IMG/VR virus record: IMGVR_UViG_3300021961_000119
Span: 1 to 57,130 of that record
Direction: 5' to 3' (one strand)
Length of the DNA stretch: 57,130 bases
Origin: a virus
The notes beneath the pieces were generated by a model. That model was not told the origin of the DNA. It ran no database searches and saw only the letters and a list, made by a program, of their open reading frames with translations. Shown piece by piece: positions 3,092 through 57,130 of the stretch (positions are counted from its first letter, which is position 1; every line of letters starts with the position of its first letter). The translations under genes and the position numbers were made by a program.

Positions 3092-3121
3092 ATTATAACA
3101 CAGGTGGGGTAGCCTTGTCAA
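3092..3121 (-). promoter_or_regulatory. sigma70 promoter P4 with structured leader
   Basis: On the minus strand: TTGACA, 18-nt spacer, TATAAT, overlapping the end of the DUF6378-like gene. The leader (3029-3091) has a GGATC...GATCC inverted repeat followed by CCAACCGATA, shared with the leader of promoter 55547-55576. Confidence 0.85.
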
Positions 3122-3398: not shown

Positions 3399-4626
3399 GT
3401 GCGAGTCCTCCTTTTTTATACCGGTTCTTGTACCCGCCGGGTGGTGCGTCCTGCAGTAAACGCTCGACGATCTCGTCGGGATCGTACCCTTTCAGCATTC
3501 CACGGATCAGAGCCTCAGTTGTGGCCTGTCGTCCGAGCGTCGCCGGACCCATTGCCCCCTCTATACGTCCGGGATTCGCTACCACTTGTGGCTCAGCAAG
3601 ATTCTTAAGCAAAGCGGTCTCGTGCGGGCGTACTTGGCTGAATCGCAGTGGGGACGCCGTACCCGTACCGGGGCCGTAGGCACCAGCCAGTTGCGCTTCG
3701 CGTGTGAGGAGTGTTCCGATCGTCTGCTCGGGTGTCATCGACAGAAAGTCCGGTGTACGCAAATCCGCCGCCGCATCCATGTATTCGTCAGTCTTGCGAT
3801 TCGCGACCATGCCCGGACCACCCAATAGCTTCTTCAGGTAGTAATCCTCGGCGTGAGCGGCCTGAATGGGCGCGGCAAAAAGCTGACCCGACATCCCGGG
3901 CATATGGCCCATCTCCTCTACCGGAGAAATGAACCCAAGGTCGCCGTGTCCGAGCGAATGCGACGCCACATTGCCGAGTCGCCGTGCTTGATTTACGTCG
4001 GTCAGGTGCGACGCCACGTTGCCATGGCCTTGTGCTCGCATCATGTCGTACGCCAGCGCGTACATCTCTTTACCTTTCGCGGGCAGACTCTTCCACCATG
4101 CGGCACTGGGGTCCCGAAGTCCGTACCCGTCGGGCTTGACGTCCATCGCATAAAGTTCAGTCATCACCGGATCGGGCGTTAGCGAAGTCCGACGCGGGTC
4201 GCGCATCGCGGCTTGTTCCATGAACTTTTGTAGGCCATATCCTAGGTCCTCTTTGCCGGGCCGTGCGCGGCCGTAATTCCAAGTGATGTTAGGATATGCA
4301 CCCATCGCGTGCGCTTGGTCTATGTCTTTCGGAGCCTTGCTCTCGGGGTCTAGCCGGAGCTTGCCAGTTCTAGGCATGAAACCCCGCTTCACCGCATCTT
4401 CATCTGTGCTCGATATCGTCGCACGGATCGGTTCGCCGGTAGCGGTCTTGCCGAAAATCCCAGCCTTGTTATACTGCTCCACGATTTCTGCCGGGAGCAT
4501 ACCCTTTTGCGCTTGACGCATCCCAAGCGGAATGCGCTGGGCGTCCGGGGTGGCGGCAATGGCGCGATGGCCCCTGCCTACCCCTTGCATTAGGTCAGCG
4601 AACGACAGATTCTTCACTGGTGGCAT
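3379..4626 (-). CDS. Unknown 415-aa protein
   Basis: Begins MPPVKNLSFADLMQGVGRGH and ends with the basic, glycine-rich tail GGYKNRYKKGGLAHAAVIA. Similar KKGG-type tails occur in virion proteins of this phage (21947-26626, 41596-42354, 49243-50481), so a structural or ejected role is possible although it sits in the early block. Its start overlaps the deacetylase-like gene by 32 bases, so the two are probably co-expressed. No catalytic motif is recognised. Confidence 0.75.
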   Translation of the reverse strand: MPPVKNLSFADLMQGVGRGHRAIAATPDAQRIPLGMRQAQKGMLPAEIVEQYNKAGIFGKTATGEPIRATISSTDEDAVKRGFMPRTGKLRLDPESKAPKDIDQAHAMGAYPNITWNYGRARPGKEDLGYGLQKFMEQAAMRDPRRTSLTPDPVMTELYAMDVKPDGYGLRDPSAAWWKSLPAKGKEMYALAYDMMRAQGHGNVASHLTDVNQARRLGNVASHSLGHGDLGFISPVEEMGHMPGMSGQLFAAPIQAAHAEDYYLKKLLGGPGMVANRKTDEYMDAAADLRTPDFLSMTPEQTIGTLLTREAQLAGAYGPGTGTASPLRFSQVRPHETALLKNLAEPQVVANPGRIEGAMGPATLGRQATTEALIRGMLKGYDPDEIVERLLQDAPPGGYKNRYKKGGLAHAAVIA

Positions 4627-5449
4627 AGTATACCTCGTTGCTGATCTTCAGCGTTTGCAGGTGGATGTCGATCGTGTCTTGCATCGGCTTCGCGTATCCC
4701 CCTGCTAGATTCCACACCAATGGGACCCGGGCCTCGCGTGCGGCGGTGAAGATGCCACGATCGCGGGCCGCAAGACCCTCCTTGGACAGGTATCCGACGC
4801 CGTAGGGGTCTTGGTCCCAAGCGTCAGCACCGGCCTGATACAGTATTATACCAGCCTTCGAGTGTCGAATCAATCCCTTGGCGAACGAATTCCACATGGC
4901 GGCGTTCCAGTCGGACTGGATCGGGCGTCCAATGTCCGGGCGAGTGACGTGCGTCACGCGGCCCCGGATCATCAGGTGGTCCAGCACGTCCTCGGTCCCG
5001 TCGCCGTGGTGCCCATCCCCGTCAATGATCAGCACATTCGTCGCGCCGTTCCGGAGTGCCTTCATCGCGGTGATCATCAGCCCGTTGAACGTGCAGAATC
5101 CGTACCCGTCCTCGAAGTGGGCGTGGTGGAAGCCCTGCGTAGCGGAGCACGCAACCCCGCCGTTCTCCAGCACGTGCTTGGCCGCCGCCCAGTGACCAGC
5201 GTTCGAGTAGAGGAGCGAGTTGGTAAGCTCCGGATCGATCGTGCCGAATCCGTTGGGGGTGACATTCTTCAGGACGCCACGGACGTATTCGCGGTGGTGG
5301 GCCTCTTCGAAGTCGATCGCTGTGTACGGCTCGAAGTTCGAGCGCACGTCACCCTCCAACTGGTGGATGAACTCGGGGATCTTCGCTACCGAGATGAAGT
5401 CGTAGGAGATCTCTTGGGCCGGGTGGTAGAATACGGGGGTGCTAGTCAT
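4595..5449 (-). CDS. Histone-deacetylase-superfamily zinc hydrolase
   Basis: 284 aa from the ATG at 5449, behind the shared leader. Family motifs appear in order: the charge-relay pair H108-H109 (FHHAHFEDGYGFCTFNG); metal ligands D145 and H147 in IIDGDGHHGDGTED; the third ligand D209 in YQAGADAWDQDPYG (family GFDAH..DPLG); and the catalytic Tyr252 in LAGGYA. The protein is therefore a full-length, probably active amidohydrolase of the arginase/deacetylase fold, removing acetyl groups from lysine, polyamines or a related amide. It is transcribed from promoter 5485-5513, directly downstream of the Z-DNA operon. The substrate is unknown. Confidence 0.88.
   Translation of the reverse strand: MTSTPVFYHPAQEISYDFISVAKIPEFIHQLEGDVRSNFEPYTAIDFEEAHHREYVRGVLKNVTPNGFGTIDPELTNSLLYSNAGHWAAAKHVLENGGVACSATQGFHHAHFEDGYGFCTFNGLMITAMKALRNGATNVLIIDGDGHHGDGTEDVLDHLMIRGRVTHVTRPDIGRPIQSDWNAAMWNSFAKGLIRHSKAGIILYQAGADAWDQDPYGVGYLSKEGLAARDRGIFTAAREARVPLVWNLAGGYAKPMQDTIDIHLQTLKISNEVYYATSEESVVR
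4845..4873 (-). promoter_or_regulatory. Candidate promoter inside the deacetylase-like gene
   Basis: On the minus strand: TTGATT, 17-nt spacer, TATAAT. It would drive the 415-aa gene and the DUF6378-like gene. It lies within coding sequence, so chance is possible. Confidence 0.4.
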
Positions 5450-5460
5450 GTGTATGTCCT

Positions 5461-5676
5461 CTATGGTTTATTGGTGGGGGACGAATTATACCACACGTGG
5501 GACAGGTTGTCAAGTCCATTCTTCCCATCCTCGGGTGACTCGGGCATCTCGGGTCTTTCGCGAGTCGTGAAGCGAAATTCGCAATGGTTGCAAGTTCGGC
5601 GACGGCGAGTGATGCCGTTCGCGTTTTGGTACGTGGTAGTGACTCGGGTGTCCTCGCCGCATTTGATACAATTCAT
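5461..5676 (-). CDS. NrdR-like zinc-ribbon protein lacking the ATP-cone
   Basis: 71 aa from the ATG at 5676, which overlaps the datZ stop (ATGA). The sequence MNCIKCGEDTRV...RRRRTCNHCEFRFTTRERPE matches the N-terminal zinc ribbon of the ribonucleotide-reductase repressor NrdR (C3, C6, C29, C32). The ATP-cone is absent; the rest is short and acidic. It could bind NrdR boxes in host nrd promoters or act as a small DNA-binding adaptor. The tail codons overlap promoter 5485-5513. Confidence 0.82.
   Translation of the reverse strand: MNCIKCGEDTRVTTTYQNANGITRRRRTCNHCEFRFTTRERPEMPESPEDGKNGLDNLSHVWYNSSPTNKP
5485..5513 (-). promoter_or_regulatory. sigma70 promoter P5
   Basis: On the minus strand: TTGACA, 17-nt spacer, TATAAT. 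It lies in the last codons of the NrdR-like gene and drives the deacetylase-like gene. Confidence 0.85.
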
Positions 5677-6236
5677 AACCAACCCCCTGTAATTCCTATA
5701 TCGTTGCAAACGCGGCGAACCGACTCGCGCACGTTCAATGTCGGATGCAAACGCTCGGTCTCGTTCACCATGTCCGACAGGATCGCACGAAGGCCATCGA
5801 GCACTTGCTTGGCGTGTGCCCCCACCCCGTTGTCCTGCAGAAAAAAGATCGCCTCGATCTGGTCCGCGAGCTTGACTATGGCTTCTACATCGGAGCCTTT
5901 TACCTGCCGGTACGCCGCCATGGTGTCTATATCTACGCGGTCCTCAGCCTTCTCCACGATCCCTACACCCCCTACCGCTTCTAGGTCTCGCTTGAACGGC
6001 GTCGGCATGTCGCCCGTGCGCACCTCGATGATGTCATGCGCGAGTGCCCACTGCAAGAGCTTCAATTTGCCCGAGTCCTGCAAGAGTCCGTTCCAGCGCA
6101 TTGCGGCCGCGAGGGATCCCGCGATCACCGCTACTGCGAAAGAGTGCTCGGCCAACGTCTGCTCCCGCGACGTCTGCACAATGTGCCACCGCTTGACGTG
6201 GCAAGCGCGAAGTTGTTCGTATACTGTTAAGCTCAT
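5673..6236 (-). CDS. datZ: DatZ-like HD-domain dATP triphosphohydrolase
   Basis: 187 aa. HD-superfamily residues are H31 (LAEHS), H67-D68 (WALAHDIIE) and D125 (VKLADQIEA). The N-terminal KRWHIVQTSREQTLAEHS resembles the YfbR/DatZ group, where Arg-Trp contacts the base. DatZ enzymes of Z-DNA phages strip triphosphate from dATP, so the polymerase inserts dZTP opposite T. The assignment rests on the fold plus its place in a purZ-mazZ-dpoZ operon; fold alone would only give an HD nucleotidase. Start and stop overlap both neighbours by four bases (ATGA). Confidence 0.88.
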   Translation of the reverse strand: MSLTVYEQLRACHVKRWHIVQTSREQTLAEHSFAVAVIAGSLAAAMRWNGLLQDSGKLKLLQWALAHDIIEVRTGDMPTPFKRDLEAVGGVGIVEKAEDRVDIDTMAAYRQVKGSDVEAIVKLADQIEAIFFLQDNGVGAHAKQVLDGLRAILSDMVNETERLHPTLNVRESVRRVCNDIGITGGWL

Positions 6237-6448
6237 GATTTTACTGCCTGTAAACGTCTAATCTGGTCCGCGATCTGATCGCCGGACAATTCGTCGAAAA
6301 GCTGAAATTCGTACTTGCGAGCGATGTGCTCCAGTGCTCCGTTCCAGATTTTTTTCACCGCTTCGCGGTTCTCGTCGTCCTCAGACCCCAGCACATGGCC
6401 GAAGGTCTCGTTGTACCAAAGGTCAAAGGTCTCATTTCGTTTCGACAT
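6233..6448 (-). CDS. Unknown 71-aa protein within the Z-DNA operon
   Basis: Begins MSKRNETFDLWYNETFGHVL. Rich in charged residues and predicted helical (REAVKKIWNGALEHIARKYEF, GDQIADQIRRLQAVK). It overlaps mazZ by 17 bases and datZ by 4, so it is translationally coupled to two nucleotide-pool enzymes. No domain is recognised. A partner or regulator of MazZ/DatZ is conceivable but is only inferred from position. Confidence 0.78.
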   Translation of the reverse strand: MSKRNETFDLWYNETFGHVLGSEDDENREAVKKIWNGALEHIARKYEFQLFDELSGDQIADQIRRLQAVKS

Positions 6449-6935
6449 GGCGCATGATCCTCGTGTTGACGTCGACTTCCCATTCGCGTCCCTCGTTGAT
6501 ATCCATCTTGTCCTCTACCGCCTTATGTACGTCTATACCGTTTTTGTGCGCGACGTCGAGCAAGAGAATCATGATGTCACCCATTTCGAGAGCGGCTTTT
6601 GGGTTACGAGCGTACTCGCCCACCTCCTCGTAGAGCTTGAGGAGGATGTCCGCAGTGGTACGCGCCGGAAAACGCGAGTCTGCCCACTTGGTAATTCTAT
6701 CCTGAAGTTGTCGCATATCAGCCCCACCACGCTTCTTATACGCGTTGACGGCGCGGACCGCAAGGTCGGCATTCTTATCGCAGTTGGCCATAACGCCACG
6801 CAAGTGATGACGGACTTCGAAAGACGCGACGGTTGCGCCGTGCGCATCGACAACTTCTGCCGCCCGTTCAGGGTGAATCGCCCATGGGGTGTCATTGAGT
6901 TCATCCGTGTGTACTGTTGATTCTACCTGTAGCAT
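6432..6935 (-). CDS. mazZ: MazZ-like dGTP/GTP diphosphohydrolase (MazG family) with N-terminal extension
   Basis: 167 aa. The start at 6935 is supported by GGAGG six bases upstream, inside the end of purZ. The C-terminal two thirds is a MazG-like all-alpha NTP pyrophosphohydrolase: E103, E104, E107 (LYEEVGEY) and E117/D120 (EMGDIMILLLDVAHKNG). In Z-phages MazZ converts (d)GTP to (d)GMP, the PurZ substrate. The first 70 residues (ERAAEVVDAHGATVASFEV...NADLAVRAVNAYKKRG) are extra and resemble a small phage module seen elsewhere. The gene sits between purZ and datZ. Confidence 0.88.
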   Translation of the reverse strand: MLQVESTVHTDELNDTPWAIHPERAAEVVDAHGATVASFEVRHHLRGVMANCDKNADLAVRAVNAYKKRGGADMRQLQDRITKWADSRFPARTTADILLKLYEEVGEYARNPKAALEMGDIMILLLDVAHKNGIDVHKAVEDKMDINEGREWEVDVNTRIMRHVETK

Positions 6936-8028
6936 AAGCCCTCCAAAGTTCTAGAATTCGTCCCATTCGTGCCTCTTGCCCATACTGGGGCATGGAGTAC
7001 ACGTCTTTATATTCCGGTCCGAGACCGATCCAACGCACGAACGTGTTCGGCGTGCGCTCGATCGATTCGACGATGTCCTGCACCTCTTCCTCCGTCTTGC
7101 AGTAATTAACGAAGTTCAGGAAGATCTCCCGGGCACCATTATACTCTATCGCTTCCCCGATCTGCTTGCGACTGAATGTGAAAATGCGGCGCGGTAGCTT
7201 GGTGACGGTGGTAAGCTCCGTCTTTTGTCCGATCTCTTCAAACGTGATCTCCAACTGGTCGTCGTAGCACGGGCCGGAGTACCCGACTTGCGTGCCGTGT
7301 GTGTCGAATCGATTGGCCACCCGGATAGGGTAAGTGCGGCAAGTGCCGACGACTGTGATATCGGGCAAGTCCATCACTGTAGGCAACAGGTCGTGCGGAA
7401 TGCCGCAATCGGCAAGGATTTGCCACAGACTCACATCACGCGAAGTGGTGTAGGGGTAGAAGCCGTGGTACATCGAGAGTCCGTACCCTTGTGCACCCTC
7501 CACCAGCACGTGCTCGGCTTCGCGCAAGCACTGGCGGTACTTGGACACTGTGACCACGTACTTCGATAGCCCCTCACAATTCGCGGCTATGTTCATGTCG
7601 TCCGGGTCGCGCCGGATGCGCTGAATCATCGCGGCACCCACGCCTTTTTTGGTCGAACCGATCTTGGTCATCGGCCCGGCTTCTTCTTCGATGTGACGAT
7701 CCGTCACTACGGCGGCGTGCGGGTGAATCACGATGCGAACGCTCTTGAGCAAGTCCGCGCACGCGGCGATCTCTTCCAGCAATTGCACCGGGTTGATAAG
7801 TGAGCCGGGGCCGAGTAGCACCTGCTTGAGCATGGGCGACACGATGCTATTTGCAAGGTGCGTGTGAATGAACTTGCGTCCAGTCTTGCTGATGTACGTG
7901 TGCCCCGCATTGGGTGCCCACGCGGTGATCACCGTATCCGGTGCTTCGTCCTCCGCGATCTTGCCCACGATAAGCCCCTTACCGGTGCTCCCGTATTGCA
8001 AATCGACTACAACCTTAATCTTGTCCAT
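6901..8028 (-). CDS. purZ: PurZ, 2-aminoadenylosuccinate synthase
   Basis: 375 aa from the ATG at 8028 (MDKIKVVVDLQYGSTGKG), 5 bases after the polymerase stop and behind AGAGGT. This is an adenylosuccinate-synthetase fold: a glycine-rich N-terminal loop, NAGHT with the catalytic His, and LLGPGSLINPVQLLEEI. In PurA the loop is WGDEGKG with a catalytic Asp; here Ser14-Thr15 replace Asp-Glu. This substitution marks PurZ, which condenses dGMP with aspartate using a purine triphosphate to give N6-succino-2-amino-dAMP. Host PurB and kinases then give dZTP. It is the key enzyme for a 2-aminoadenine genome. Confidence 0.94.
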   Translation of the reverse strand: MDKIKVVVDLQYGSTGKGLIVGKIAEDEAPDTVITAWAPNAGHTYISKTGRKFIHTHLANSIVSPMLKQVLLGPGSLINPVQLLEEIAACADLLKSVRIVIHPHAAVVTDRHIEEEAGPMTKIGSTKKGVGAAMIQRIRRDPDDMNIAANCEGLSKYVVTVSKYRQCLREAEHVLVEGAQGYGLSMYHGFYPYTTSRDVSLWQILADCGIPHDLLPTVMDLPDITVVGTCRTYPIRVANRFDTHGTQVGYSGPCYDDQLEITFEEIGQKTELTTVTKLPRRIFTFSRKQIGEAIEYNGAREIFLNFVNYCKTEEEVQDIVESIERTPNTFVRWIGLGPEYKDVYSMPQYGQEARMGRILELWRAYATGRINSTHG

Positions 8029-8033
8029 TACCT

Positions 8034-9869
8034 CTATCCTTTCGCTTCGTACCAGTCCTCGCCTATACCCCAGTCGCACGTGATCGGAACACGTAGATGA
8101 ATGGGGCACTCTACACCATCAAAGGTCGTGTAGATTCGTGCCACCTCTTGCGCTTTGTCGAGTGAGTCATTATCGAGCGATACGCCCACTTCGTCGTGTA
8201 CCGTCAGCAGTAGTCGCCCACAGCCTTCGGCGGTTAAATACTTGTGCAGTTCGATGAGCTTCTGCTTCATGCAGTCCGCGCTGGTGGCTTGGTAGATCAG
8301 CCCCGACGCCTTGTGCACGAATTGCCCGCCCGGAAAGCGAAGCCTCCGGCCCATCACTGAATGCACCGAACCACGTTCCTTGGCGATGTTACTCGCCTTC
8401 TGTGCGGTGTTGCGCATCCCGGGGTTCGCGGTGTGGTACTTGTCGAACAGTGCCATCGCCTCGGGTCCTGCCTTCAAGAACACATTGCCACTGGGTCCCA
8501 CTTCTTCGGTGTAGGGCAGTCCACACTCCTGCGCTAGCCGCCCGGACCCCATATTGAACGCCAGCCCGAGGTTAATCGCTTTCGAAGACGGGCCACCTGC
8601 GTACTGAGCGTTCCGGGGTATGCCGGTGAGATCAGACACCAACTGGTGAAAGTCCAGATCGGGGTTTGCACGATAGGCCTCAAGAATCGCGGGAACTTGA
8701 CCGTAATGGTTAGCCACTCGGAATTCAAATTGTGACCAATCCAGCCCCATCCATTTAGCACCCACATCAGCCTTGAAAATCGGCCGGATAAGCGATTTGA
8801 TGGCAACGTCTCGCGATGGTATCTGCTGGAGAGCGGGATTGGTAACTGATAGACGTCCAGTGCCAGTTCCCGCCTCAGCGTCGTTTTTAGTCTGGTTATA
8901 ATTGCAGTGAATGATGCCATCGTGTTCGTGCCCCAAGATGTGACCCGACAGGAAAGTGTCCCGGGTCTTGAGCATTTTGCGCAAGTCGAGAATCATCTTC
9001 GCGGCGGGGTGCTTCATGCGTCGCAAGCAGTCGGCGTTGATCGAGGCCTTACCGCCGTCGGTCTTGTCCGCCTTCGTGCCGTCGATCAGGTACCACTCGT
9101 TATCGTCCGCGAGTGTCGGCTTGAACAGATCCGCGATCGATCCGGAGGGGTTCGGGTTGACCTCAAAACCGGCCAAGCTATTCAGATCCCTCTGCATATT
9201 GTCAACGCGCACGGTGAGGTCACGGACGGCCTTCTCAGCCAGCCCCACGTCCACCCGCACACCCTGCTCTTCCATATCCATGATCACGGGCATCAAATCG
9301 CGCTCGAGCCGGTGGACTTGGGCGAGATTCTGCGTCCGCATCTGCTCCTCTTGCCAGTCGTACAGTGCTAGCGTGACCACGGCGTCCTGAATAGCATATT
9401 TCGACACCATGCTGATCGGGGCACGCGAAATGTTCGGCATCTGCGCATTCCGAGTCGAACGGCCACCGAAGAGTCGCGCCATCTCCTCGTAGATCTCGTC
9501 GTCCTTTTTCATGCCGCAGTATTTGCGGGCGAGGAAGTCGAGGGCGTAGGTGGGTTCGTGTTCCGAGATCAGTGCGGCACGGGTCATCGTGCAGTCGATT
9601 CGGTCAAGGGGGATCGCTACACCAGCTTCCCGGAGAAAGTGGAGATCGAATTTGAGATTGTGACCGACCCACAGATCGACACGTTTCTCGTCGATGAGGT
9701 CGTTGAGCCACTTGATAACATGAGGGTCGGACCGTACATCCCAGTACCCCGAGAACCCGGGGAGCGCGATGGAGATGCCGAACAGCTTGTCGGCCCACCA
9801 TTTCAGCCCCGTGGTCTCGGTGTCTATGACCACCACCGGAGCGTGGTCAATGCGTGGGAATTCGGTCAT
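8034..9869 (-). CDS. dpoZ: Family A DNA polymerase with 3'-5' exonuclease (DpoZ-type)
   Basis: 611 aa. The exonuclease domain has DTETTG (D16, E18), GHNLKFD (D75) and Y158-x3-D162. Polymerase motif A is GLDWSQFEFR (D377, E382), motif B SSKAINLGLAFNMG (K430) and motif C TVHDEV (H558-D559). All catalytic residues are present. Compared with E. coli Pol I, the O-helix Phe762 equivalent is Leu434 and Tyr766 is Phe438. Lying next to purZ, it matches the DpoZ polymerases associated with 2-aminoadenine phages and is the replicative enzyme. Its ATG overlaps the upstream stop by one base. Confidence 0.92.
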   Translation of the reverse strand: MTEFPRIDHAPVVVIDTETTGLKWWADKLFGISIALPGFSGYWDVRSDPHVIKWLNDLIDEKRVDLWVGHNLKFDLHFLREAGVAIPLDRIDCTMTRAALISEHEPTYALDFLARKYCGMKKDDEIYEEMARLFGGRSTRNAQMPNISRAPISMVSKYAIQDAVVTLALYDWQEEQMRTQNLAQVHRLERDLMPVIMDMEEQGVRVDVGLAEKAVRDLTVRVDNMQRDLNSLAGFEVNPNPSGSIADLFKPTLADDNEWYLIDGTKADKTDGGKASINADCLRRMKHPAAKMILDLRKMLKTRDTFLSGHILGHEHDGIIHCNYNQTKNDAEAGTGTGRLSVTNPALQQIPSRDVAIKSLIRPIFKADVGAKWMGLDWSQFEFRVANHYGQVPAILEAYRANPDLDFHQLVSDLTGIPRNAQYAGGPSSKAINLGLAFNMGSGRLAQECGLPYTEEVGPSGNVFLKAGPEAMALFDKYHTANPGMRNTAQKASNIAKERGSVHSVMGRRLRFPGGQFVHKASGLIYQATSADCMKQKLIELHKYLTAEGCGRLLLTVHDEVGVSLDNDSLDKAQEVARIYTTFDGVECPIHLRVPITCDWGIGEDWYEAKG

Positions 9870-10126
9870 CAGAACGGAATGTCGTCAGACACGAAGTTCG
9901 AATCGCTGGCTGGTCGGCCAGTAGAACCGCCTTCTTTGCGGGTAAGCTTAATGGAGAAGTACTTTTTGCCCTCTAGCTTGCCGCCGGGCTTGCCCTCGTT
10001 AACCCACGCGGAGAGCCAAAAATCCGTGCCCTCAACGTTGATCGAACCGGTGAATTCCGGGTGCTTGTCGGTGTCGCGACGCTCGTTACGAGCCATCATA
10101 CCGGAGTTAGTATTGTCGTATGCCAT
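9869..10126 (-). CDS. Small SSB-like protein with SSB C-terminal tip
   Basis: 85 aa. The core DKHPEFTGSINVEGTDFWLSAWVNEG...GKKYFSIKL resembles a small beta-barrel phage family. The protein ends SDDIPF, the acidic-Pro-Phe tip used by bacterial SSB to recruit replication enzymes. It is first in the Z operon, directly behind promoter 10163-10191 and coupled to the polymerase. Likely a single-strand DNA-binding or polymerase-recruiting protein; this is inference from the tip and context. Confidence 0.75.
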   Translation of the reverse strand: MAYDNTNSGMMARNERRDTDKHPEFTGSINVEGTDFWLSAWVNEGKPGGKLEGKKYFSIKLTRKEGGSTGRPASDSNFVSDDIPF

Positions 10127-10162: not shown

Positions 10163-10191
10163 ATTATACCACCCGCGCTACTGTCTGTCAA
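10163..10191 (-). promoter_or_regulatory. sigma70 promoter P6 of the Z-DNA operon
   Basis: On the minus strand: TTGACA, 17-nt spacer, TATAAT, followed by the GAGGACA ribosome site. It drives the SSB-like gene, dpoZ, purZ, mazZ, the 71-aa gene, datZ and the NrdR-like gene, which are all tightly packed. Confidence 0.87.
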
Positions 10192-10194
10192 CTG

Positions 10195-11610
10195 TCACAG
10201 TTTGTAGCCATTGTGTCCCTCTACTATATCTAGCACTCGCTTGGAGCGGGTCATCCCGACGTAGAACACTCGGACCTCGTCGTCCGGTGATTTCTCGGCA
10301 GTCTGCTGTACTCGCGTGGTCATGTCGGTGAGAAGAATGACTCGATCCGCCTCATGACCCTTTGCCGCATGGATCGTAGAGAGTCGAATAGTAGGCTCAG
10401 TATCGAGATCGGCGTCGGTGTAGAAATCCACGACTCGGCCGGGGATTTGGAGAGCGACGTAGAACGGGGTGCGACCAAGAGTGGCGAGGTCGCCCGCTTC
10501 AAGAAGCCTGCGAGTCTCAGCGCTGGAAATGGTGAATATTGCATTTCGCTCCCCCTCCGTGACTCGCTCGCCTCGGCCAAGCTTGCGGAACGCCCGGATA
10601 CCGGAGGCATAACGATTTTGATAAAGCCCGGGGCGACCCGACTCTCTAGTGTATGGGATGCGCTGTTCGATAAGTGATTGTTCAACTTCGCGGAGGACTG
10701 AATGTGTCCGTCCCAATAATAGTATATCTTCCCCGTGGGTGATTTCCACCGAGTTGATCGATCCGTGTACTCGGACCAGTCCCACATCTGCTTTGGGACT
10801 AAACTCCTTATCCACGCGGAGTGCGACTCGACGGATGAGGTCTTGAGATCGTGCGTGGACTGAAGCAGGAAGTCGATGCGAGTGCGAGAGCACACGGCTA
10901 TCACCCTTATGCTTTTGTGTAAATCTTGCCATACCGTGTACATCCGCACCGGCCCATGTATAAATCGCCTGATCGTCGTCCCCAGCGATATGCACTTCGT
11001 GAGAACGTCTGACGAGCTTCTCGATGACAGCCCACTGAAGAGGTGATAGGTCTTGAGCTTCGTCGACAAATACAACCTCTGCGTCTGCTCGCACTGCGCC
11101 CCGGGCGGCACGTTCAAGCATATCGGTGAAGTCGTAATAGCCGTACGTAGATTTCCAATCAGCGTATGCCCGAACGAACGCATTGAACTCGGCCCGAGTA
11201 CCCGGCCGGTCCGAGATGTCGTAAACTTCTGCCGGATTGGAAAAGGTGTTCCGGGCATAATTGAGTAGGTCAAGGTAGAAGTCTCCATCAGCACGCTCCT
11301 CATCATCTTCCGGGGATTTGCCAATAATCGGTATCCCCATAACTGTTGAAAATTCGCGAAGCTTCATCGCGTCCACGACTTGCGTCTGCCGCAAGCCCAT
11401 GTGACGGAAGGCCATCGCGTGAATGGTGGACACATTGTCCGAACGCTTGAGGCCCAGCCGGGAGAGTGCCTCGGAAGCCGCCGCACGGGTAAAAGAAACG
11501 AAAGCCACGCGTTCGGCTTGAACGCCCGAATCCCTAGTCTCTTTTACTCGCCGCAGTAGCTCCGTGGTCTTGCCAGTCCCGGGGGGTCCGTAGATGGCGT
11601 TAACTTGCAT
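10195..11610 (-). CDS. UvrD/Rep-like superfamily 1 DNA helicase
   Basis: 471 aa from the ATG at 11610 (MQVNAIYGPPGTGKTTELL), which overlaps the preceding stop by one base. Walker A is GPPGTGKTT, motif Ia SFTRAAASEAL, motif II VVFVDEAQDLSPLQW, motif III GDDDQAIYTWAGAD, motif V STIHAAKGHEAD and motif VI VFYVGMTRSKR. This is a complete ATP-dependent 3'-5' SF1A helicase, expected to unwind DNA during replication or recombination. It is smaller than UvrD (about 720 aa), having reduced accessory domains. Confidence 0.93.
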   Translation of the reverse strand: MQVNAIYGPPGTGKTTELLRRVKETRDSGVQAERVAFVSFTRAAASEALSRLGLKRSDNVSTIHAMAFRHMGLRQTQVVDAMKLREFSTVMGIPIIGKSPEDDEERADGDFYLDLLNYARNTFSNPAEVYDISDRPGTRAEFNAFVRAYADWKSTYGYYDFTDMLERAARGAVRADAEVVFVDEAQDLSPLQWAVIEKLVRRSHEVHIAGDDDQAIYTWAGADVHGMARFTQKHKGDSRVLSHSHRLPASVHARSQDLIRRVALRVDKEFSPKADVGLVRVHGSINSVEITHGEDILLLGRTHSVLREVEQSLIEQRIPYTRESGRPGLYQNRYASGIRAFRKLGRGERVTEGERNAIFTISSAETRRLLEAGDLATLGRTPFYVALQIPGRVVDFYTDADLDTEPTIRLSTIHAAKGHEADRVILLTDMTTRVQQTAEKSPDDEVRVFYVGMTRSKRVLDIVEGHNGYKL

Positions 11611-11882
11611 TAGCCGCGATGCTTCACTGCACGCACCGCCCACATCTGAGCTGTGACCGTGTGAGCGATCGCTGTGGTGAACATCTCTTGCACTTCACCG
11701 TCGTGGTAGACGTCGCGCAGTGTACGCAGATAGGTGACAGTCGTGTCGAAGGATTGATTTATCGAGCGAATTCGACGCTCTTCGTCATTCTCGTCCTGCG
11801 GGATGGGCATCGTAGACACAACCTCTTTAAATTCCGCGAGAACGTCTTCGGCTGGCGTCTCGACTTGCTTCTTGGTAGCCAT
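11610..11882 (-). CDS. Unknown 90-aa protein
   Basis: Begins MATKKQVETPAEDVLAEFKE. Largely helical and charged (DENDEERRIRSINQSFDTTVTYLRTLRDVY). It is coupled to the helicase gene by a one-base overlap and preceded by a UUCG hairpin. No domain is recognised. Confidence 0.78.
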   Translation of the reverse strand: MATKKQVETPAEDVLAEFKEVVSTMPIPQDENDEERRIRSINQSFDTTVTYLRTLRDVYHDGEVQEMFTTAIAHTVTAQMWAVRAVKHRG

Positions 11883-13523: not shown

Positions 13524-13552
13524 ATTATACACTACGCGAGCGTTCCTAGCAA
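13524..13552 (-). promoter_or_regulatory. sigma70 promoter P7
   Basis: On the minus strand: TTGCTA, 17-nt spacer, TATAAT. Most of it lies inside the 3' end of the SNF2 helicase gene, and an AGAGGAAG ribosome site precedes the next ATG. Confidence 0.7.
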
Positions 13553-15274
13553 GTTCCGATCGTTTCGGTCGTTGATGCTCGTCCGCACGAATTCACTCAC
13601 GTCTTTTTTCTCTCGCAACGCTTGTGTGACGGCCGCATCTACGGTGCCCTCGGCGATAATGTCGATGTAGGTCACACTCCGCGTCTGCCCAATTCGGTGC
13701 GCACGGTCCTCGGATTGCTCGCGATCAGTGAAAGAGAACGAATTCGAGTAGTACACCACCAATTCTGCACGGGTCATGTTAAGACCCACACCGCCGGTGG
13801 CCGCATTGCCCACAAGGAATCGCGCTTTGCCAGTTTGGAATAAGTTCTGCACGTTATGGTCGCGGTCGTTCTCGGAAATGCCGCCATGAATCTCCACCAC
13901 AGCGTCGTGGCCGTACCTTTCGCGTAGGGCCTCGCACACCATCCGGATTTCCTCGATGAACCGACACCACACGATCGTGCTGGCGTCGTTCTCCTCGGCT
14001 ACAGCGAGTAGCTCCTCGACTTTCGGGTTCTTTCCTGCAATGCGATTATGCGTGAACTTCGCCGCGTCGTAAAGGTCGGGGTTGCGCTCGAAGGTGATAA
14101 TACCCCCGGCGATCTCTTGAAGCCGGAGCATTCGCTCGAGCACTGTCTTGACGGTGATTCCTTGATCTCCAGATACCGTCTTGTCACGTTTAGCAATGTC
14201 TTTATATAGTCGTTTTTGTTCATCTGTTAGCTGGACCTCGCGGGTCTGGTACACTTTTGGTGGTAGCTCCGTCAGCACCTCGGACTTGCGAACTTGGTAG
14301 ATGAACGGAGAGATCAGCTCGATAAGCTCTGCCATATTTTGGTAGCCTACCACCTGTCGATCCTCGTACCCGCCCATGATCGCGTACCGATTGCGGAAAG
14401 AGTAAAAATCCCCGATCCCGATTATGTTCGGGTCGAGGAACTCGAATTGCATGAAGATGTCCATGGGGCCGTTCGCCACTGGCGTTCCCGTCATGATCAC
14501 TTTGTAATTCGCGGATTTCCCCAGCTTCACGCAATTCTTACTGCGTACCGCCGAGTGATTCTTGATCATGTGCGCTTCGTCCACGATCATGCCGACACGG
14601 GTGCTACAGTCCACGAACTTCTGCGCAAGATGCACCGCACCACCGGCCGCAAGGGACTCGGTGCCGACGATCAGGAACTTCAGACGGCCATCGGTCGTGG
14701 TGTTCCACTCCTCGAACGCCTTGGGCTTGCCGGTGTCAAGAATTAGCGTGTCGCACTCCATCGGGCAGTGGATAATCACCTCGCGCTCCCAGTTCTTGCG
14801 TGTGCTGAACTTGGTGACGATCAGCACCCGGTCCACCTTAGCGTCCATGAAGTACGCGGCAAAGAGGTCGAGCGAAGTCTTGGTCTTGCCCGTGCCCATG
14901 TCCATGTAGAACGCGAATGTGCTCTTGTTCCACGCATGGTCGAGGCCCTTGAGCTGGTACGGCCGTGGCGTAGTCTTGAACGTGTAGACCGGCGGAAATG
15001 CCGCTACTTGATTCGTATGTACGCGCTCGATAGTCGTAGTTGCAACCGTGCGAGCATCGTCTGTAAATGTGTCAGCATCAAAATTACCCAGCAGGAACTC
15101 GCTATTAGCCCGAAGAGCAGGAGCTGTCCACACGCGGCGACGAGAATCCCAACGCCGATTGGGAATGCGGCGAATTTTGTCCACCATCCACGGCGGCGAG
15201 TGGATGACGAATCGGCTGGTCTTTGCATCGTAGGCAATCTGCACTTTAGAATTCTGATCGGAACTTGGGTTCAT
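13532..15274 (-). CDS. SNF2-family (SF2) DNA helicase
   Basis: 580 aa. An N-terminal domain (about 1-90, KIRRIPNRRWDSRRRVWTAP) resembles the HARP-like domain. It is followed by motif I MDMGTGKTKT, DEAH box IVDEAHMIKN, motif III IMTGTPVANG and the helicase C domain ending in motif VI EQSEDRAHRIGQT. This is an SMARCAL1-like annealing/remodelling ATPase seen in several phages, where it may act in replication restart or branch migration. It overlaps the primase gene end by 29 bases, so the two are translationally coupled. Confidence 0.92.
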   Translation of the reverse strand: MNPSSDQNSKVQIAYDAKTSRFVIHSPPWMVDKIRRIPNRRWDSRRRVWTAPALRANSEFLLGNFDADTFTDDARTVATTTIERVHTNQVAAFPPVYTFKTTPRPYQLKGLDHAWNKSTFAFYMDMGTGKTKTSLDLFAAYFMDAKVDRVLIVTKFSTRKNWEREVIIHCPMECDTLILDTGKPKAFEEWNTTTDGRLKFLIVGTESLAAGGAVHLAQKFVDCSTRVGMIVDEAHMIKNHSAVRSKNCVKLGKSANYKVIMTGTPVANGPMDIFMQFEFLDPNIIGIGDFYSFRNRYAIMGGYEDRQVVGYQNMAELIELISPFIYQVRKSEVLTELPPKVYQTREVQLTDEQKRLYKDIAKRDKTVSGDQGITVKTVLERMLRLQEIAGGIITFERNPDLYDAAKFTHNRIAGKNPKVEELLAVAEENDASTIVWCRFIEEIRMVCEALRERYGHDAVVEIHGGISENDRDHNVQNLFQTGKARFLVGNAATGGVGLNMTRAELVVYYSNSFSFTDREQSEDRAHRIGQTRSVTYIDIIAEGTVDAAVTQALREKKDVSEFVRTSINDRNDRNLLGTLA

Positions 15275-16808
15275 CGACTTTCACCTCGTGATCTTCAGTA
15301 ATAGGAGCGTACCAAACGTTGATGGGCTTGCCGCCCGGGATTCGGAGCTTGTCGTGATCCGCGCCGCAGTCGCGCCGGAGCGATGTCCACAGGTCCATCC
15401 CCGTCATCACCTCGGCTTTGTTACGCTTAAGGAACTCGGAGAAGGCCGTGCCCCGGAACACGATGCACCGCGTGCCGTTGATGACCTGCACCACCGGGAT
15501 GTTGCGGGTTAACGCTTTCCGGTCTTCGGTGTTAGTACCGTCGGAGGTCAAGTCGGCCTTTTGCACGAATTCGTTGAACTTGGCGGCAATGATGCCTGAC
15601 GCACTCGCCTCTTTCGGCACTTCGATCACCCGCAGAGTCGGGATGAGCGGGTCGAGGATTCGGCGTCGCCACGAGTCCTGAGTGATCTTGGGGATGTTGA
15701 TCTTGAGCTGTTCGAAGATCAGCGTGCCCATCGCGGCGGGGTCACGTAGGATAATAGTCGGGATGTTCGCGATGAGCTTCCCGTTAACGTGGATGCCCCA
15801 GCGTGGGGGTTCGGACTGGTACTCGATCAGCTCGGTAAACTGGGGCAGTTGGTCCTGCGCGTCCAGCTCTTTGCTCTCGTCGGTTGAGATCCCGAACTCG
15901 CGGGTAACGCACACCTTGCGATCGCAAAGCGACTTGCACGGCTCTTCGCTACATTTGTACAGGTAGTCCCGGCGCGACGCGGAGCGGATCACCTTCTTGG
16001 CCTCGGCGGGTCCCAGTGGCTTGTCGAACATCGTGCGGTTCAACGCCATCGCATCGTCAAAGAATGTGTCGGGGCGGGCACGCTTGAGGTACACCACCAC
16101 GTTGTACATCGAGTCGTTGCGGGAGCCGGATTCGACGCCTGTGTGGATCATCTTTTGAATGCACGGTGGAGCCTCCAAGTGCTCCCGGTGGGCCATTTCC
16201 TGCAGTGCCGCCACCGTAACTCGGCGCGACTGGGCGTACGAGATGAACAGCTCGAACGACATCTTCTGCCCTTTGTCGTCAATCGCGTACCGCACCGTCC
16301 GGTCTTTGTCGAAGAATGGCAAGTTGATCCAGTTCCCCAGCGACTTCTCACCACTGGACGTGGTCAGCGAGTCCTGCTTGGGGAAGATGTCCACGTGGTT
16401 CGGGATTTGGAGCATGTCGCGCCACGAATTAAGGAGCCGGATCACGAGCTTGGCCGGTAGGTATTCCTCACCAAATAAGTACAGATGTGCCCCGCCCGAC
16501 TTGCTCCGGGTCGCCACCAGCGGGAGCCGGTAGTGCTCGATCTTTTCCACAAGCTTCGGAATGTCGATGTCGGACCCGTCCGAACCTTTGCCGTGGTTAT
16601 CCACGTCGATACAGCCGAACAGCACCGTGCCGCCGTCCGTGATCGGAACCACCCCCAGTCCCATCTTGCCGCCCAAATGGTCGGCGTAGTGTTGCAGGGT
16701 TACTTCGCTCTTCTCGGTTATCATATTGCCCGTCGCGGGATCCCACTGTCCGAAGGACCGGAGATTACCAGCGAACAGGTTTGCGTAGTCTTGAACTAGA
16801 CTAGTCAT
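15246..16808 (-). CDS. Archaeo-eukaryotic primase (PrimPol-like, TOTE-type)
   Basis: 520 aa. The catalytic site is D68-x-D70 (FGCIDVDNHG), then the S-x-x-x-x-H strand TRSKSGGAHLYLFG (H108) and the third acidic residue in NHVDIFPKQ. A Cys cluster (CSEEPCKSLCDRKVC) follows near residue 290, then a C-terminal domain of unknown role. The AEP core resembles primases of TOTE systems and the primase-polymerases of some Z-DNA cyanophages. It would synthesise primers and perhaps short DNA. It is the first gene of the replication block, behind region A. Confidence 0.85.
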   Translation of the reverse strand: MTSLVQDYANLFAGNLRSFGQWDPATGNMITEKSEVTLQHYADHLGGKMGLGVVPITDGGTVLFGCIDVDNHGKGSDGSDIDIPKLVEKIEHYRLPLVATRSKSGGAHLYLFGEEYLPAKLVIRLLNSWRDMLQIPNHVDIFPKQDSLTTSSGEKSLGNWINLPFFDKDRTVRYAIDDKGQKMSFELFISYAQSRRVTVAALQEMAHREHLEAPPCIQKMIHTGVESGSRNDSMYNVVVYLKRARPDTFFDDAMALNRTMFDKPLGPAEAKKVIRSASRRDYLYKCSEEPCKSLCDRKVCVTREFGISTDESKELDAQDQLPQFTELIEYQSEPPRWGIHVNGKLIANIPTIILRDPAAMGTLIFEQLKINIPKITQDSWRRRILDPLIPTLRVIEVPKEASASGIIAAKFNEFVQKADLTSDGTNTEDRKALTRNIPVVQVINGTRCIVFRGTAFSEFLKRNKAEVMTGMDLWTSLRRDCGADHDKLRIPGGKPINVWYAPITEDHEVKVDEPKFRSEF

Positions 16809-16835: not shown

Positions 16836-16864
16836 TTGACACCACCTCTGTGGGCTGGTATAAT
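16836..16864 (+). promoter_or_regulatory. Perfect-consensus plus-strand sigma70 promoter in region A
   Basis: TTGACA, 17-nt spacer, TATAAT, exact at both boxes and pointing away from the primase gene into the repeat array. No plus-strand gene follows. It may produce an antisense, regulatory or origin-priming RNA. Confidence 0.7.
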
Positions 16865-16902: not shown

Positions 16903-17152
16903 TGTTCCACCGTTCCATCAAGATGGAACACATGATGGAACACCCTCTCCCATTCGACAGACAGGCCTCCTGTTCCACCGTTCCATGCGCACGCGGGGGG
17001 ATTGCTCTGTCAACGGCGTGGTTCGATACGGGGGGTATATGATGGAACGGGGGATACAACGGAACACGACACACTCAAGCCCCGAAGGACGCGGGCTTCG
17101 AGACACCGGGGCGTTCCAGACGCCGTACCATCTTAATGGAACAGGAAGTCGA
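16903..17152. repeat. Intergenic repeat region A (inverted partner of region B)
   Basis: Noncoding stretch dense in GTTCCA / TGGAAC half-sites (about ten). It includes the 18-bp palindrome GTTCCATCAAGATGGAAC (16912-16929), GATGGAAC at 16934-16941 and GTTCCACC units. The reverse complement of much of it is found in region B (52702-52938). A separate segment (17077-17105, AAGCCCC...GGGCTTCGAGACAC) matches B in the same orientation instead. Region A lies between the late module and the primase gene. Confidence 0.85.
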
Positions 17153-52701: not shown

Positions 52702-52938
52702 TGTTCCATAATGATGGAACGGTGATGGAACGCACCACAGTCTCACAAGCCCCGTCCGACGCGGTTTTCGAGACACACAGCCCGTGTACCATTGTTCCAT
52801 CATATACCCATATATATTAAACCATGCCGTTGACAGGGCAGTACCCCCGCGTGCGCATGTAACAATGGAACACCGGGTCTTTTTTCGAATGGGGAGAGCG
52901 TTCCATCATGTGTTCCATCTTGATGGAACGGTGGAACG
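52702..52938. repeat. Intergenic repeat region B (inverted partner of region A)
   Basis: Part of the 487-bp noncoding gap before the terminase gene (52521-53007). About ten GTTCCA/TGGAAC half-sites are present, including 18-bp palindromes GTTCCATCTTGATGGAAC (52912-52929) and GTTCCATAATGATGGAAC (52703-52720). Read on the minus strand, much of it follows region A in the same order: the palindrome, CATGCGCACGCGGGGG, CTGTCAACGGC and GTATATGATGGAAC. Confidence 0.85.
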
Positions 52939-54616: not shown

Positions 54617-54646
54617 ATTATAACACGGGTGCGGTACCTTTGTCAA
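54617..54646 (-). promoter_or_regulatory. sigma70 promoter P12
   Basis: On the minus strand: TTGACA, 18-nt spacer, TATAAT. The TGA in the -35 box is also the stop codon of the small zinc-ribbon gene. Confidence 0.85.
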
Positions 54647-55546: not shown

Positions 55547-55576
55547 ATTATAACACGGGAGCAATAGGTTTGTCAA
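55547..55576 (-). promoter_or_regulatory. sigma70 promoter P13 with structured leader
   Basis: On the minus strand: TTGACA, 18-nt spacer, TATAAT. The leader (55482-55546) carries CTGGATTGATGAAAC...GGTCCAG and CCAACCGATA-like elements, resembling the P4 leader. Confidence 0.85.
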
Positions 55577-55882: not shown

Positions 55883-56121
55883 GGGTAGGCCCTCATTGCT
55901 TTGAGTTCACGAGCGTTCTTATTGATCGCCATTTGGCGGTCGCGGATGGCGTCGATTTCGCACCACAGCTTCCGAGCGTACTCGGGGTCGCGGTCTTCGC
56001 CGACGGCCAGCATCGCGTCGTAGCAGTCGCGCAGGGCGCACTCGCACGAGTACAAGTCGGAATTGGCGAATTTGCGGCGAAAGAGGGCCGCGAGGTCAGT
56101 GTAAGAGATCGTGCGGTTCAT
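55879..56121 (-). CDS. Small unknown protein (copy 2, complete)
   Basis: 80 aa: MNRTISYTDLAALFRRKFAN, continuing to KLWCEIDAIRDRQMAINKNA and a short tail. This is the complete version of the gene cut at window position 1. The ATG at 56121 overlaps the stop of the 84-aa gene (TGATG) with GGAGGTGA upstream. Function is unknown. Confidence 0.78.
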   Translation of the reverse strand: MNRTISYTDLAALFRRKFANSDLYSCECALRDCYDAMLAVGEDRDPEYARKLWCEIDAIRDRQMAINKNARELKAMRAYP

Positions 56122-56375
56122 CACTTCACCTCCGCACTGCCGGACATTTCGCCGTCCATGATGTCGAACAGCACAGCCTTTGCACGATTGAGCATTTGGC
56201 GGGCGGCCTCGGTCTGCCCCATGGCCATCAGCTCCTGCGCGTCGGACATCAGACCCGCGACGACCATGTTGCCGCCGGTGTAGCGGTAGGTGATCGACTC
56301 GCGAATGGAAGTCTTGAACGCTTCGATGTCGCAACCGTACATTGATTGCTCGACGCTGGTGTGGGTAGTCTGCAT
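56121..56375 (-). CDS. Conserved small unknown protein (copy 2)
   Basis: 84 aa beginning MQTTHTSVEQSMYGCDIEAF. Paralogue of the 85-aa protein at 108-365, including the SMYGCDIE and TGGNMVVAGLMSDAQELM segments. It has its own promoter at 56410-56439 and the same leader. Function is unknown. Confidence 0.8.
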   Translation of the reverse strand: MQTTHTSVEQSMYGCDIEAFKTSIRESITYRYTGGNMVVAGLMSDAQELMAMGQTEAARQMLNRAKAVLFDIMDGEMSGSAEVK

Positions 56376-56409
56376 TGTGTTGTCCTCTATGTGTTGTTGA
56401 AAAGGTTAT

Positions 56410-56439
56410 ATTATAACACAGGTGCTACAATCTTGTCAA
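56410..56439 (-). promoter_or_regulatory. sigma70 promoter P14
   Basis: On the minus strand: TTGACA, 18-nt spacer, TATAAT, with the same following leader as promoter 400-429. Confidence 0.85.
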
Positions 56440-57130
56440 GTATCTTCACCAGTTCGCCCGTGCCGCCATTGCAAAAGCGCAGATTAGTGGCCTTGCGGTA
56501 TTTGTCCTGTACAGCGTGCGAAATGAACTTAGTCATTATCACCGTGTGCGCTCGAACGAGCTTAGGCTTGGTCACGGCTTCTTCGGCTGTGTAGAAGGTC
56601 AAGTCCAACCGGTCCCCCATCTCGGGCAAGACGACTTGGTAGGCCTGTGCCGGTAGCAGTCCGATCACCAGCACACCGGGTTTTGCCACGCCGGTGGGGT
56701 GCGGAATCGGCTGGGGGTTATGCTTCGGACGATTAACCACGATCTGCGGGGCGTTTTCCAGCATTTGCGTCGACATTCTATCTGCAACCCGGGCCGCCAC
56801 GGACTCGGCGACGACATCCAGCAGTAGCTCGAGTATATCCGCGAGCCTCGTCTTGGGGTCTTCCTTGCGCTCGGGCGCGGGGGTCGGGGCTAGTATAGGG
56901 GCAGGGACCCCGAGAGCCTCTCGGAACGTCTTCTTCGATTCCTGTAGAGCCTTTTGCCGAGCGATCTCGATCCGGTCTTTGTAGTTGAATACGCGCTGGT
57001 CAGTGACCTTTATCCAGCGGCTGGCATTGAGCACGGTCTGCGCTTCGCGCAGTGCGTCTTTGCGGGAGATATTGGGGCGATGGCGAAAGACTTGCTCCAT
57101 GCGAGCGAAGATCGCGCCTTTTTCTATGTG
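56411..57130 (-). CDS. Truncated unknown protein with Pro-rich linker (copy 2)
   Basis: The reading frame runs off the window end, so the true start is missing. The visible sequence (HIEKGAIFARMEQVF...) matches NIEKGAVFAAMVAVF of the 256-aa paralogue; an internal Met is not a likely start. The N-terminal helical domain, Pro-rich linker (GVPAPILAPTPAPERKEDPK) and GVLVIGLLPAQ domain are present. The linker-to-C-terminal region is shorter than in copy 1. Function is unknown. Confidence 0.75.
   Translation of the reverse strand, partial: HIEKGAIFARMEQVFRHRPNISRKDALREAQTVLNASRWIKVTDQRVFNYKDRIEIARQKALQESKKTFREALGVPAPILAPTPAPERKEDPKTRLADILELLLDVVAESVAARVADRMSTQMLENAPQIVVNRPKHNPQPIPHPTGVAKPGVLVIGLLPAQAYQVVLPEMGDRLDLTFYTAEEAVTKPKLVRAHTVIMTKFISHAVQDKYRKATNLRFCNGGTGELVKILDKIVAPVL

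Follow-up and report, generated by a model that had tools for sequence, protein, structure and literature searches.

The window analysed here, a 57,130 bp record of an uncultured virus taken at its full length, contains terminase, portal, major head and tail-fibre genes. We found no match to a tyrosine integrase and no RNA families in this record, no defence-family matches among its genes of unknown function, and no DNA-level relatives of it among GenBank phages. Its minus strand carries an operon whose products, in order from the promoter, are an SSB-like protein (85 aa, 9869-10126; phrog_7364, E=8.5e-14), DpoZ (a family A DNA polymerase with a 3'-5' exonuclease, 611 aa, 8034-9869), PurZ (375 aa, 6901-8028), the predicted MazG-like dGTP pyrophosphohydrolase MazZ (167 aa, 6432-6935), a 71-aa protein to which we assign no function (6233-6448), the predicted HD-domain dATP triphosphohydrolase DatZ (187 aa, 5673-6236) and, last in the operon, an NrdR-like zinc ribbon without the ATP cone (5461-5676; PF22811, E=2e-8). 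The promoter (10163-10191, minus strand) is an exact TTGACA-17-TATAAT with a TG extension (12/12), read from 10191 to 10163 with the first ATG 37 nt downstream; in 36 of 41 related loci the SSB-like gene is preceded by a promoter scoring at least 10/12. Start and stop codons within the operon overlap or lie a few bases apart, and AGAGGA/GAGG ribosome sites are visible. An earlier sequence-only reading had described purZ, mazZ, datZ and dpoZ as a four-enzyme operon behind this promoter. The coordinates, families and promoter that it gave are all confirmed and the operon is real, but its extent was drawn too narrowly, the SSB-like gene, the 71-aa ORF and the zinc-ribbon gene having been omitted.

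Just upstream of the operon promoter is a gene for a UvrD/PcrA-like helicase (10195-11643, minus strand; PF00580, E=2.7e-28), which also adjoins DpoZ in Acinetobacter phage SH-Ab 15497 (MG674163) and Salmonella phage PMBT28 (MG641885); the SSB-like gene is likewise a member of the module in both phages. The 71-aa protein between MazZ and DatZ had no family match in profile searches, and it is conserved in the clade and, like all the other genes of the operon, under purifying selection. The ATG of the zinc-ribbon gene overlaps the DatZ stop codon (ATGA); the encoded protein corresponds to the zinc-ribbon half of NrdR, translationally coupled to datZ, and might interfere with the repression of ribonucleotide reductase by the host NrdR.

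PurZ passes the cut-off of its dedicated profile (NF038379, 350.3 bits against 300), and among PDB structures it matches the PurZ of cyanophage S-2L best (7odx, E=1.7e-79). Its start is the ATG at 8026-8028, preceded by GAGG and 5 nt behind the DpoZ stop codon (8034-8036); the longest ORF would begin at a GTG at 8109, inside dpoZ, and the ATG at 8028 fits better. A phage-encoded enzyme of this superfamily could in principle be an ordinary PurA that boosts adenine synthesis, with the neighbouring hydrolases balancing the dNTP pools and the genome retaining normal adenine; PurA-like enzymes are indeed known in other phages, such as Acinetobacter phage MD-2021a, where the gene is annotated as purA. 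Against this, Ser14 replaces the Asp13 of PurA (T273 is present), every PurA equivalog model scores well under its own cut-off on the window protein (TIGR00184, 115.7 bits against 395.6), and the gene is constantly linked to those for DatZ, MazZ and DpoZ. Furthermore, a 32-row tree places the window PurZ within a 28-row PurZ side with support of 100/98, the outside rows being E. coli PurA, as the sole bacterial PurA, and three PurZ0 sequences; Flavobacterium phage MaF61 forms a long branch of uncertain place. The protein thus groups with characterised PurZ enzymes, apart from both PurA and PurZ0, in keeping with its original identification as purZ, and we regard an ordinary PurA as very improbable. 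A PurZ0-type system was also rejected, given the position outside PurZ0 in the tree and the mere 26.5 bits scored with the profile of the Wayne-type DpoZ (NF038381, cut-off 350). The PurZ0 phages (Arthrobacter Wayne, Gordonia Archimedes) share the logic of the pathway, with their PurZ0 forming a separate clade in the tree and with DutZ/DmtZ in place of DatZ/MazZ (PMC12884076).

We located the published functional residues (PMC8342488, PMC8065100, PMC8599892) in alignments of 48-58 homologues encoded at metagenomic loci, and nearly all the catalytic and specificity residues were found in the four enzymes. The departures seen in the window, namely N308 of PurZ (Q308 in S-2L), E560 of DpoZ (S583 in phiVC8), and A85 and F89 of MazZ, are common to SH-Ab 15497 or PMBT28. 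MazZ consists of a PF04447/DUF550 domain with an N-terminal extension; the PDB structure that it matches best is S-2L MazZ (7ody, E=3.4e-11). Its metal ligands (E103, E104, E107 and D120) and guanine-pocket residues (I123 and D127, equivalent to S-2L I56/D60) are kept in 54 of 54 loci. Since the MazZ of SH-Ab 15497 takes dATP as well as dGTP (PMC8342488), dGTP is here a candidate substrate. DatZ is recovered by a phage family annotated as dATP triphosphohydrolase (phrog_7076, 1.4e-31), with S-2L DatZ as its best PDB match (6zpa, 7e-19); the residues of the predicted dATP pocket, W17, I19, P80, K82 and K122, correspond to W20, I22, P79, K81 and K116 of S-2L, and both R16 and the HD metal ligands H31, H67, D68 and D125 are present. 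The similarity of MazZ and DatZ to the solved S-2L enzymes is moderate.

The polymerase scores 775.6 bits against the DpoZ profile (NF038380, cut-off 500), and its best PDB match is the DpoZ of Vibrio phage phiVC8 (7pbk, E=2e-135). It retains the exonuclease residues D16/E18/D75, R140/M144 of helix E2, and R419, while F438 (in helix O), L434 and G523 match F459, L455 and G548 of phiVC8. Because phage phiJL001 has a PolA close to DpoZ yet carries no Z genes (PMC8599892), the preference of the window polymerase for Z is best taken as a prediction. Comparison of the window with its relatives gave dN/dS values of 0.00-0.23 for PurZ, MazZ, DatZ and DpoZ, which indicates that none of the four is decaying. 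These values, the four open frames, the intact active sites and the conserved perfect promoter argue against a Z-cluster in decay, or recruited to some other role, in a phage that has gone back to A-DNA; no point in its support was found, and its probability appears close to nil.

The closest known systems are those of SH-Ab 15497 and PMBT28, whose PurZ proteins are 48% identical to that of the window. As in the window, genes for the helicase, DpoZ, SSB, PurZ, MazZ and DatZ lie together in one direction, in nearly the same order except that the SSB gene follows that of DpoZ in the two phages and precedes it in the window. Their MazZ proteins are longer (385 aa in SH-Ab 15497, where MazZ is fused to DUF5664 (PMC12884076), and 290 aa in PMBT28) than the 167-aa version in the window, which has PF04447 as its only domain, and they lack the 71-aa gene, the zinc ribbon and the HDAC-like gene described below, all three of which are present in the window. 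Phage phiVC8 shares PurZ, DatZ and DpoZ with the window, but has the MazZ-2 variant rather than the PF04447 type and a primase gene between those for the polymerase and PurZ. Cyanophage S-2L shares the purZ-mazZ-datZ triad; it is devoid of DpoZ and relies on a non-selective PrimPol (PMC8065100), whereas the window has DpoZ and encodes an archaeo-eukaryotic primase with an AEP-TOTE domain (PF22548) elsewhere on the minus strand (15246-16808), adjoining a SNF2-type helicase (13532-15274). A PrimPol-like primase thus accompanies DpoZ in the window genome.

The sequence-only reading had implied that finding all four enzymes together is rare. A survey of those PurZ-bearing contig pieces in IMG/VR whose purZ is flanked by 4.5 kb or more in front and 3 kb or more behind contradicts this, since DpoZ, MazZ and DatZ are encoded beside purZ in 51 of these 54 mutually related, and hence not independent, pieces; two of the exceptions lack a recognisable MazZ (possibly having MazZ-2) and one lacks DpoZ. 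The literature likewise reports that datZ and purZ always flank mazZ, that Pol I occurs in all the Z phages then known with the exception of S-2L (PMC8342488), and that the usual complement of PurZ phages is DatZ with either MazZ-2 or DUF550 and a matching DpoZ group (PMC12884076). Taken with the modules of SH-Ab 15497 and PMBT28, these observations make the four-enzyme set expected rather than exceptional: it is an already known system, of which the window is a further member, and it is the rule in this lineage. More distant PurZ relatives (30-35% identity) were seen on four contigs, L085 (JAHFKN010000011.1), L081, L082 and L083, from bins labelled Gottesmanbacteria, Neomarinimicrobiota, Oscillospiraceae and Acidobacteriaceae; L085 also carries DpoZ-like and DatZ-like genes. 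These may be phage contigs in metagenome-assembled genomes whose hosts have not yet been tied to Z-DNA.

Together, we consider it highly probable that a tailed phage uses this locus, a Z-cluster (purZ-mazZ-datZ) accompanied by DpoZ, to make Z-DNA, a reading further favoured by a module order nearly that of SH-Ab 15497, whose pathway is worked out. Following the published chemistry (PMC12884076), MazZ would convert dGTP to dGMP, which PurZ would join to aspartate with ATP to give dSMP; the host PurB and nucleotide kinases would then take dSMP through dZMP to dZTP. The record gave no match to a PurB-family enzyme or a guanylate kinase, which fits completion of the pathway by the host. DatZ would meanwhile strip dATP from the pool, and DpoZ would copy the genome with a preference for dZTP over dATP, so that virion DNA would carry Z opposite T, melt at a higher temperature and resist many restriction enzymes with A in their sites. 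The sequence-only reading had gone further, predicting complete replacement of adenine by 2-aminoadenine (Z). Family assignments, the residues of the active sites, phylogeny, selection and synteny point jointly to a Z genome, and a genome with its adenine replaced by Z is very likely; completeness as such goes beyond what gene content can quantify, and we infer it, like the activities of the individual enzymes in this phage, from the genes. A working pathway that replaces adenine in part, giving a mixed A/Z genome, has a precedent in E. coli, where the S-2L triad converts part of the adenine only (PMC8342488). We nevertheless judge it unlikely, as Z phages are reported with complete substitution (PMC12884076) and both the dATPase and the Z-selective polymerase are predicted to be intact here.

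Avoidance of restriction sites was considered as a sign of Z-DNA and discarded: GC-only 6-mer palindromes are more depleted in the window than those containing A/T (0.34 vs 0.81), and lambda shows the same pattern (0.21 vs 0.72), so palindrome avoidance is uninformative in this respect. The window contains ten perfect TTGACA-N-TG-N-TATAAT sites (400-429, 1284-1311, 2303-2331, 3092-3121, 5485-5513, 10163-10191, 16836-16864, 54617-54646, 55547-55576 and 56410-56439), of which shuffled sequences give none, and several of them have a longer conserved sequence in common (GCACC-GTGTTATAAT). Promoters scoring at least 11/12 with the TG occur at 3.4 per 10 kb in the clade, 1.1 in other PurZ contigs and 0 in contigs of two ordinary phage families (Nazgul-like and T1-like), densities that come from phylogenetically clustered samples with one control set made up of structural genes. 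A 56-kb phage contig without detectable PurZ, in a search whose positive control gave no match, has 25 such promoters. Near-consensus promoters are thus not diagnostic, and were rejected as a signature of Z phages; a tie between dense, near-perfect extended -10 promoters and these phages is a lead only. The ends of the record (1-1128 and 56014-57083) are diverged copies with stretches of 74-92% identity, to be explained either by genes duplicated in tandem across a circular genome or by two strains assembled at the join. A long inverted repeat pair (16904-17028 and 52815-52937, about 36 kb apart) is complementary over 87 nt at 75% and 47 nt at 94%, and the element GTTCCATC recurs within it.

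Behind the cluster lies a gene for a histone-deacetylase-family zinc hydrolase (284 aa, 4595-5449, minus strand; PF00850, E=2.5e-26). A second perfect extended -10 promoter (5485-5513, minus strand), situated within the zinc-ribbon gene, is predicted to drive it, and every one of 48 related loci has a promoter there that scores at least 10/12. The residues of the predicted active site, comprising the H108, H109 dyad, the zinc ligands D145, H147 and D209, and Y252, are invariant (49/49). DatZ is encoded on the same piece in 36 of the 42 IMG/VR loci retrieved with the HDAC-like sequence, and in the remaining six the contig stops just upstream of the HDAC-like gene. Among GenBank phages, only six records contain a relative. 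Two belong to Rhodococcus phage E3; the other four are uncultured, and LR756501, which is among these four, has a distant PurA/PurZ-like match (26% identity) about 250 kb away. The gene is absent from SH-Ab 15497, phiVC8, S-2L, PMBT28 and the outer loci, and its position right behind the Z-cluster is a trait of this clade only among the Z loci compared. As a speculative and rather doubtful proposal, the enzyme could be an extra part of the Z programme, with proteins of the host nucleoid or transcription apparatus, polyamines or a nucleotide intermediate among its candidate targets for deacylation; the zinc ribbon might act alongside it on the host NrdR and so raise the supply of dGTP.

These results add a clade of probable Z-genome phages that is well sampled from the environment, one IMG/VR scan having yielded 59 loci with PurZ and a broader scan 386 matching stretches. 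The clade offers enzymology a large set of natural DpoZ, PurZ, MazZ and DatZ variants, and its associated gene for a predicted deacetylase may belong to Z-phage biology.
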